DNA from: Limnobacter thiooxidans
GTDB taxonomy: Bacteria > Pseudomonadota > Gammaproteobacteria > Burkholderiales > Burkholderiaceae_B
Reading direction: 5' to 3'
DNA length: 64,000 nt
Assembly: GCF_036323495.1 (NCBI RefSeq)
Contig: NZ_AP028947.1
Coordinates: 806,001-870,000 of the forward strand
Numbering within the stretch: the first letter of the stretch is position 1; each line of letters begins with the position of its first letter. The notes below the pieces were generated by a model. That model was given only the letters and a program-made list of their open reading frames with translations, was not told where the DNA came from and ran no database searches. Shown here piece after piece: positions 39,948-41,334 of this stretch. The translations under genes and the position numbers were made by a program.

Positions 39948-40376
39948 TCAGATTTCAAGTGGCTTGGGTTGTTGTGCGGAATGCGGGTGCTCGGCTTCAG
40001 CATAGATCTTCAATTTCTTGATCATCGCGTAACCCAGAGGACCTTTTGGCAACATGCCTTTCACAGCTTTCTCCAGCGCGCGGCCAGGGAAGCGTTCCTG
40101 CATCTTGTCAAAGTTCGTTTCGTAGATACCGCCTGGGTAACCAGAGTGGCGGAAATACTTCTTGTTCAGGCCTTTGGTACCTGTAACGCGCAATTTACCG
40201 GCATTTACAACAACAATGAAGTCGCCTGTGTCGATGTGCGGTGTGAATTCAGGTTTGTGCTTACCACGGAGGCGGCGTGCAACTTCACTGGCTACACGTC
40301 CCAACACCTTGTCGGTGCCGTCGATCACAAACCACTCTTGTTTAACCTCACCGGGTTTCGCTGAGTAGGTTTTCAT
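39948..40376 (-). CDS. rplM: 50S ribosomal protein L13
   Basis: 142 aa; [27 protein letters not shown] at the N-terminus and [20 protein letters not shown] in the signature region. An AAGGAA site precedes the ATG. The leader is about 100 bases if the promoter at 40490-40519 is right and contains small GC hairpins that might serve autogenous control; that is inference. Confidence 0.98.
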
Positions 40377-40537: not shown

Positions 40538-40573
40538 TAAAAAAAACCCAAGCGCGGTAAGGCGCTTGGGTTT
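40538..40573 (-). terminator. Rho-independent terminator of the small RNA candidate
   Basis: Perfect 12-base stem AAACCCAAGCGC / GCGCTTGGGTTT (40544-40555 with 40562-40573), 6-base loop, followed on the minus strand by eight T. The plus-strand side has only three T, so it acts on the minus strand. Confidence 0.88.
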
Positions 40574-40664
40574 AATCCACCAAAGGAGGAGGGTGGAGGA
40601 GACAATCTTGCACCAGAGAAGAATCTCTTCAAAGCTTGCTTTGTGGTTCATCTCGGTGACAACA
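40538..40664 (-). ncRNA. Candidate CU-rich small RNA with anti-Shine-Dalgarno loop
   Basis: About 127 nt between a well-formed promoter and a strong intrinsic terminator, with no plausible protein. In RNA sense there is a 5-bp hairpin AGAGA/TCTCT (40615-40628), then a 6-bp stem TCCACC / GGTGGA (40576-40581 with 40592-40597 on the plus strand) that displays CTCCTCCTTT in a 10-base loop, and a second CTCCTCC just 5' of it, then the terminator. Exposed CCUCC motifs are the hallmark of trans-acting sRNAs that mask ribosome-binding sites (for example the CcsR RNAs of Rhodobacter). Similarity is by motif only. Confidence 0.68.
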
Positions 40665-40670
40665 ATTAAA

Positions 40671-40699
40671 ATTCTAGTGAGTTTTCTGTTGCAGCGCAA
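40671..40699 (-). promoter_or_regulatory. Promoter of the small RNA candidate
   Basis: Minus-strand -35 TTGCGC (40694-40699) and -10 TAGAAT (40671-40676) with an ideal 17-base spacer; transcription would begin near 40664. The surrounding 40700-40860 stretch is AT-rich and holds no gene. Confidence 0.6.
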
Positions 40700-40911: not shown

Positions 40912-41334
40912 ATGGAAGCGGAAGTTAGCTGGTCCGGGTTACCCGGGATGTCCTTTGTGGCCACCACGGGGAGCGGTCACATGGTCTGTATGGACGGCGC
41001 ACCCGATGGCGGTGGAAATAACCTGGCACCTCGCCCAATGGAAGTGGTGCTTGCTGGCACAGGTGCATGCACCGCGTATGACGTGGTGCTGATTTTGCGT
41101 AAAAGTGGGCAAGACGTCCGCAATTGCAAAGTAAAGATGAGTGCTGAGCGGGCCGATGAGGCGCCCAAGGTGTTCACTCGCATCAATTTTCACTTTCAGG
41201 TGATAGGGCGCGGTTTAAAACCCAACCTGGTAGATCGTGCGATCAAGCTGTCGCATGAGAAATACTGCTCTGCGTCTGCCATGTTGGGCAAAACCGCCGA
41301 GCTGGTTTTCACGCACGAAATTATTGAAGATTAA
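40912..41334 (+). CDS. OsmC family protein (predicted thiol peroxidase or related)
   Basis: 140 aa. The two conserved Cys of the OsmC/Ohr fold are present in GTGACTAYDVVLILRK and HEKYCSASAMLGKT, with PMEVVLAGTG before the first. The YhfA-like short form fits best. Members reduce organic hydroperoxides or bind thiols. GAAGGAG lies four bases before the ATG. The stop overlaps that of convergent coq7. A palindrome upstream suggests regulated expression. Confidence 0.88.
   Translation: MEAEVSWSGLPGMSFVATTGSGHMVCMDGAPDGGGNNLAPRPMEVVLAGTGACTAYDVVLILRKSGQDVRNCKVKMSAERADEAPKVFTRINFHFQVIGRGLKPNLVDRAIKLSHEKYCSASAMLGKTAELVFTHEIIED

Follow-up and report, generated by a model that had tools for sequence, protein, structure and literature searches.

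A small RNA gene, its −35 box embedded in a predicted operator for PhaR, occupies the minus strand of Limnobacter in the interval from rplM to a divergent OsmC gene. The RNA is a new member of family RF02278 (Betaproteobacteria_toxic_sRNA) at an already known genomic place; the new part is the predicted PhaR link of its promoter. Our preferred model, which we think probable, is that the RNA is the Limnobacter ortholog of the double-hairpin RNAs NcS27 of Burkholderia cenocepacia and S17 of Bordetella pertussis, and that it would serve as a translational brake on carbon use, with repression by PhaR as the predicted mode of control.

Architecture and family membership of the RNA

Within the window (the whole 64-kb stretch of DNA analyzed here), a −35 box TTGCGC (40699–40694, minus strand) and a −10 box TAGAAT (40676–40671) are separated by a 17-nt spacer, as the preliminary description of this DNA had read them. 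This promoter is absent from the output of a generic promoter scan because TTGCGC has three of six consensus bases and the scan threshold is four; the scan listed a site further downstream instead (40519–40490, minus strand), which precedes rplM, lies downstream of the small RNA terminator and is a consensus match only (1 found, 1.2 expected). If transcription begins ∼7 nt past the −10 box, as in S17, the primary transcript would be ∼125 nt long, a length that the earlier estimate of ∼127 nt fits, and would comprise a 5′ part (40605–40664) probably removed by processing and a core (40538–40604). Judged from its homolog S17, the stable RNA probably measures ∼62–67 nt.

In the predicted fold, the core opens with single-stranded UGUCUCC and continues into a six-pair hairpin (hairpin 1, 40576–40597, in which 40597–40592 pair with 40581–40576) that presents the loop CUCCUCCUUU at 40591–40582, here called site 2. 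The intrinsic terminator (40538–40573) consists of a 12-pair stem (40573–40544, seven G-C pairs) and a U tract; three residues of the eight-U run (40546–40539) lie inside the stem and five beyond it; the strong terminator proposed earlier is present. Site 1, UGUCUCCUCC (40595–40604), contributes seven single-stranded bases and places its final three within the 5′ arm of hairpin 1. Two CTCCTCC motifs had been noted, one of them in a hairpin loop. They are located at 40601–40595 and 40591–40585, the first running from the single-stranded 5′ end (40604–40598) into the 5′ arm of hairpin 1 and the second occupying its loop. By itself CTCCTCC is common in the window (3 found against 4.3 expected); the unusual feature is the pair of copies 10 nt apart within a folded structure. 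Folding gives a z-score of −5.0 over 132 nt; for the 67-nt core alone it is −6.9, and in neither case was any of 200 shuffles as good.

The core scores 63.9 bits against RF02278 across model positions 1–64 of 64, above the cut-off of 50 (E = 1.5e-10 for the window as a whole), and is the sole gathering-level Rfam match within the 64 kb; for ar14 (RF02344) the score is 27.5 bits, short of the gathering score of 58.8. The single-stranded CU-rich 5′ end, the CU-loop hairpin and the terminator hairpin of the family architecture are all found. We are highly confident that this RNA is an RF02278 member and a trans-acting repressor. The trans-acting, anti-Shine-Dalgarno character suggested in the preliminary description is thereby upheld, since the relatives NcS27 and S17 act on mRNAs or growth in the work of others.

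Family matches occur in 33 of the 40 genomes searched, the Limnobacter genome included, and exceed the cut-off in 28. The core (except for the loop in the ortholog L026) and the promoter boxes are conserved among 16 Limnobacter orthologs, whereas the 5′ part of the transcript varies in length and sequence; a variable 5′ part beside a conserved 3′ part is the pattern expected of a processed precursor. Among 23 aligned relatives (23 of the 30 loci found with Rfam, seven near-identical congeners being left out), the 5′ site GTCTCCTCCA is invariant (23/23). At the DNA level, the conservation on which the preliminary description had staked its loop motif is thus found at the 5′ site, and the loop motif itself is more variable. 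Double changes affect 4 of 10 predicted pairs in these 23 relatives, with a small covariation term (−0.21).

The 3.54-Mb single-contig genome carries four copies of the family, scoring 63.9, 42.1, 40.6 and 38.7 bits, of which the first alone is above the cut-off. One of the others lies behind a phasin gene and is described below. Two more are diverged (L003:1501–1563 and L004:1501–1556): the L003-type copy has a first loop without the CU motif, the L004-type copy apparently retains the terminator hairpin alone after UGUCUCUGUCUCCUC, and each type is present in the ten congener stretches read for it. Another genome of the same order, G029, has nine RF02278 matches.

A predicted PhaR operator over the −35 box

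The sequence TGTTGCAGCGCAA on the plus strand (40687–40699; TTGCGCTGCAACA on the minus strand) holds the −35 box and agrees at every defined position with the consensus of PhbF/PhaR operators, TG[N]TGC[N]3GCAA, a motif that lies inside the PhbF footprint in Herbaspirillum seropedicae (PMC3206438). Of 112 small RNA loci among the matches listed that have enough upstream sequence, 81 carry the core pattern TTGC[AG]N[CT]GCA in the 260 nt before the RNA, compared with 12 of 2016 random stretches from the same loci; we note that these and the following motif counts come from related genomes that share ancestry and are not independent. The motif precedes 26 of the 30 Rfam-found loci, with the −10 box at exactly 17 nt in 25 of them, the same spacing as in Limnobacter.

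The same motif marks genes of PHB metabolism. It precedes phaC, phaZ and a phasin gene in the Limnobacter genome, which also encodes phaR (TIGR01848 equivalog), and of 60 phasin genes sampled from 90 matches, 38 have it in the 400 nt before the gene, versus 2 of 117 control stretches; 38 is an undercount, because the first pattern missed the Burkholderia-type form of the phasin operator, TTGTGCNNNGCACAA. In Sinorhizobium meliloti, PhaR sites, including that of the small RNA gene mmgR, are mostly of the form TGC-N3-GCA, and PhaR binds the mmgR promoter in gel shifts (PMC12542648). Binding of PhaR over the −35 box would be expected to repress, and the sequence evidence leads us to favor, with moderate confidence, PhaR control of the small RNA promoter.

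The distribution of phaR discriminates little, this gene being near universal (49/50): in the Rfam-found set, a motif-bearing copy is present in 27 of 28 genomes with phaR and in neither of the 2 without it. One metagenome-assembled genome (MAG; G085, locus L082) keeps the motif and lacks a PF07879 match. The motif alone is not specific, since 14 of 24 further TTGCRNYGCA sites that were read (20 from the first 100 entries in a list of 154 places, plus 4) lie within ORFs, the other 10 being between genes. PhaR-type motifs between genes are also seen near genes for a patatin-like lipase, citrate synthase, an aldehyde dehydrogenase and an acyl-CoA dehydrogenase (L295, L297, L284 and L285).

For several further sites a role of PhaR was considered and set aside. 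Upstream of phaR itself, the motif occurs in 18 of 30 cases (30 of 34 matches sampled; control 0/60), of which 13 read TTGCACTGCACG, in this genome part of a terminator-like inverted repeat. As these 13 are probably terminator sequence, they lend no support to phaR autoregulation. The repeat itself (L184:1720–1900) consists of GCACTGCACG and CGTGCAGTGC followed by a T-rich stretch; it mimics the PhaR motif and looks like a terminator. The TTGCN3GCA sites at the diverged copies L003 and L004 are not conserved (1 of 11 each, the Limnobacter genome counted) and were likewise rejected. In G029, TTGCN3GCA is found upstream of two of the eight cores read. For the extra copies (7 cores; the stretch L355 was dropped as it has no core match), it lies within 200 nt in 2, one of which, L351, has a −10 box at 17 nt; copy L030 lacks the motif.

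The same trans-acting RNA might be controlled otherwise, with TTGCRNYGCA as an extended −35 element or as a binding site for some other regulator, and with growth arrest governing the RNA by a different route. This would suit the 31 of 116 loci among the matches listed from which the motif is absent, 27 of them in Burkholderia, Cupriavidus, Ralstonia and Trinickia, as phaR is kept in the genomes of all 31. In most of the inspected loci of these four genera, a different sequence, TTTCG[CT][AG]NNGCA, takes the place of the PhaR-type motif upstream of the −35 box (for example in L040, L046, L066, L083 and L113, among others); of the 29 loci inspected, 26 of them without the PhaR-type motif, 24 have this sequence within 260 nt upstream of the RNA. 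Such a reading leaves aside, however, that the motif of the other loci is the one that marks phasin, phaC and phaZ promoters, that it contains the sequence footprinted with PhbF (PMC3206438), and that it resembles the S. meliloti PhaR sites, that of mmgR included (PMC12542648). We consider it possible, if rather unlikely, and prefer PhaR as the candidate regulator. The parts of the published literature drawn on here contain no link between PhaR and RF02278; Sass 2019, Figure S3 of PMC5688073 (on a common upstream motif) and supplements could carry one.

A second RNA copy of the genome, RF02278-like with 42.1 bits, begins ∼22 nt past the stop codon of a phasin gene (L002:1501–1565; G000:C1:1840301–1840365, plus strand). 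The sequence GTCTCCTC is found within 220 nt after the stop of 22 of 60 phasin genes, compared with 4 of 998 control stretches; 14 of the 22 belong to Limnobacter and 8 to Cupriavidus, Ralstonia, Pandoraea, Aquabacterium and Methylibium. By the combined pattern, an operator accompanies 21 of these 22 phasin genes and 21 of the 38 others, and the remaining phasin locus, L225, shows TGCTGCAACGCAGCAA by eye. An Rfam scan of 20 phasin loci returned five weak RF02278 matches, which score 33 to 42 bits and fall short of the cut-off.

Neighborhood, candidate targets and proposed mode of action

Downstream of the RNA, and outside it, lies rplM (39948–40376, minus strand; ribosomal protein L13, TIGR01066, 189.9 bits); the divergent neighbor encodes an OsmC family protein (40912–41334, plus strand; NF008009, 142 bits). 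We surveyed the neighborhoods of at least 120 loci selected by core sequence. Among the 120 listed, the RNA is located between rplM and OsmC in 56, adjoins rplM in 8 and OsmC in 6 at stretch ends, adjoins coq7 in 39, as S17 does, and is near OsmC without rplM in 5; the last 6 are other arrangements or lie at an edge. The gene rplM is downstream in 10 of 10 Burkholderia loci among the matches listed, at a distance of 262–748 nt, and this rplM-side place fits the listed position of NcS27 between BCAL3348a and BCAL3349. Hence the remark that no betaproteobacterial small RNA was known here does not hold. Four of four Bordetella isolates among the matches listed (L044, L053, L131 and L137) carry the RNA beside coq7, the neighbor of S17 in B. 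pertussis. The conserved rplM-OsmC-coq7 neighborhood is seen in the related loci and fits the published NcS27 and S17 positions, and the Limnobacter RNA is, by position, very probably the ortholog of both. NcS27 is probably also the bdhR1 of the S17 preprint.

An RNA on the same strand as rplM, ∼160 nt upstream of it and kept beside it in many genera could in principle act in cis on the rplM-rpsI operon, as its leader or attenuator, the short RNA then being a by-product. Synteny leads us to reject this as very improbable: 39 of the 120 loci listed adjoin coq7, and rplM was not found there (in 4 of the 39, the stretch stops less than 900 nt downstream), while the distance between RNA and rplM ranges from ∼150 to 750 nt. 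In addition, a strong terminator is followed by a separate promoter-like site, and predicted pairing with the rplM start region is weak (−8.1 kcal/mol, versus −19.8 kcal/mol for the best candidate with a long ORF). A dual function, in which the RNA would also be translated into a small protein across its CU-rich region, is less probable still and was rejected, for although an ATG-started 41-codon frame spans the core and S17L has a putative 32-residue ORF, that frame is common to only 7 of 16 Limnobacter orthologs, a different frame crosses in 3, upstream ATG frames end before the core in 4, and only a core-adjacent ATG crosses in 2.

Potential targets of the trans-acting RNA were sought as AGGAGAC-N(2–12)-ATG sites, of which the genome has 53, versus 24 for the reversed pattern; these target sites resemble ordinary Shine-Dalgarno sequences. 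An ORF of at least 90 amino acids follows 22 of 29 distinct candidate sites (30 of the 53 places read). By Pfam, the candidates include a FadL-type porin, an acyl-CoA ligase, an enoyl-CoA hydratase, a fatty-acid-desaturase family protein, Fe- and Zn-alcohol dehydrogenases, an FGGY kinase, which we read as a glycerol kinase, two solute-binding proteins, and a GAF/sigma-54 activator, a class directly repressed by S17. The best predicted pairing among the long-ORF candidates is that with a LuxR-type response regulator (the −19.8 kcal/mol given above).

On the precedent of its relatives, sigma-70 RNA polymerase would make a ∼125-nt transcript ending at its own terminator, which RNase E would trim to ∼62–67 nt. 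With Hfq, the 5′ end UGUCUCCUCC (site 1) and the CU-rich loop (site 2) may then base-pair to GGAGGAGAC-like ribosome-binding sites and thereby prevent genes for the uptake and breakdown of carbon compounds from being translated. To this we add, as a new inference, that PhaR over the −35 box would repress transcription of the RNA. Formation of PHB granules would titrate PhaR onto the granules and allow the RNA to be made together with phasin mRNA, whose 3′ end would supply a second RNA copy. Titration of PhaR would in this way pass on the stored-carbon status as a translational brake on further carbon use. We extend this reading, with moderate confidence, to much of the Burkholderiales: the RF02278 RNA would be an arm of the PHB regulon, held off by PhaR when no polymer is stored; granules would free both the small RNA and the phasin promoters; and the small RNA, joined in several genera by a CUCCUC RNA at the phasin 3′ end, would shut down translation of carbon-uptake and catabolic genes.

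Relation to known systems

As an RNA, this is a further addition to a family with studied members in both Burkholderia and Bordetella. Its promoter carries more weight, as a PhaR operator is a simple candidate answer to what controls RF02278 RNAs, a matter for which published work postulates a regulator or names none. The literature drawn on here comprises PMC11722255, PMC5688073, PMC4603805, PMC7011215, PMC3206438, PMC12542648, PMC9049629, PMC8401924, PMC10987360 and PMC5760752, with Sass 2019 (on NcS27) and Kimelman 2012 represented through citing papers. If the link is true, PhaR becomes a named candidate for the unknown repressor postulated by the S17 authors, and the arrangement parallels the PhaR-MmgR circuit of alphaproteobacteria. 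An RNA at the phasin 3′ end of Cupriavidus and Ralstonia would bear directly on PHB production; for C. necator, a review describes the riboregulation of this process as undeciphered (PMC8401924).

NcS27 levels rise in biofilm, in stationary phase, under starvation and in glucose medium; its overexpression slows growth and its antisense speeds growth (PMC5688073), and it affects carbon-use genes. The Limnobacter RNA resembles NcS27 and RF02278 in its whole-length covariance match, its two hairpins with a CU-rich 5′ site and loop, its place between rplM and the OsmC gene in related Burkholderia, and the presence of several copies per genome. It differs in that the PhaR-type motif at the −35 box in Limnobacter is absent in 9 of 9 testable Burkholderia loci (for a tenth, the upstream sequence is only 74 nt long) and in that the three other Limnobacter copies score below the Rfam cut-off. 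The conditions that induce NcS27 (glucose medium, stationary phase, starvation) would be in keeping with PhaR control, yet the motif is absent in the Burkholderia loci examined. The “toxic” of the family name derives from growth inhibition on expression in E. coli; for S17, the effect is described as modest only.

S17, expressed in the Bvg+ mode, has a sigma-A promoter (TTGCAT-17-TACTAT), is Hfq-dependent, yields a 67-nt form when RNase E cuts its 190-nt precursor, and prevents translation by base-pairing with ribosome-binding sites; direct repression of a sigma-54 activator through site 1 pairing is documented with compensatory mutations. The Limnobacter RNA shares with it the TTGC-type −35 box, the 17-nt spacing and the conserved 5′ site, and a sigma-54 activator is among the Limnobacter candidate targets. 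Processing of a longer form is demonstrated for S17 and inferred for Limnobacter. Unlike the Limnobacter RNA, S17 has coq7 in place of rplM as its neighbor, and its precursor is the longer one.

Outside the family, MmgR of S. meliloti offers a precedent for the proposed control, as a small RNA whose promoter is bound and repressed by PhaR (AniA) in the context of PHB control (PMC12542648); it is alphaproteobacterial, is described as acting on phasin expression, and is likened here by its mode of control. NmsRb (RcoF1) of Neisseria (RF02877) likewise has two CU-rich unpaired stretches complementary to ribosome-binding sites (PMC5688073), but the Limnobacter RNA scores 30.6 bits against that family, below its gathering cut-off of 52, and its closest counterparts are NcS27 and S17.
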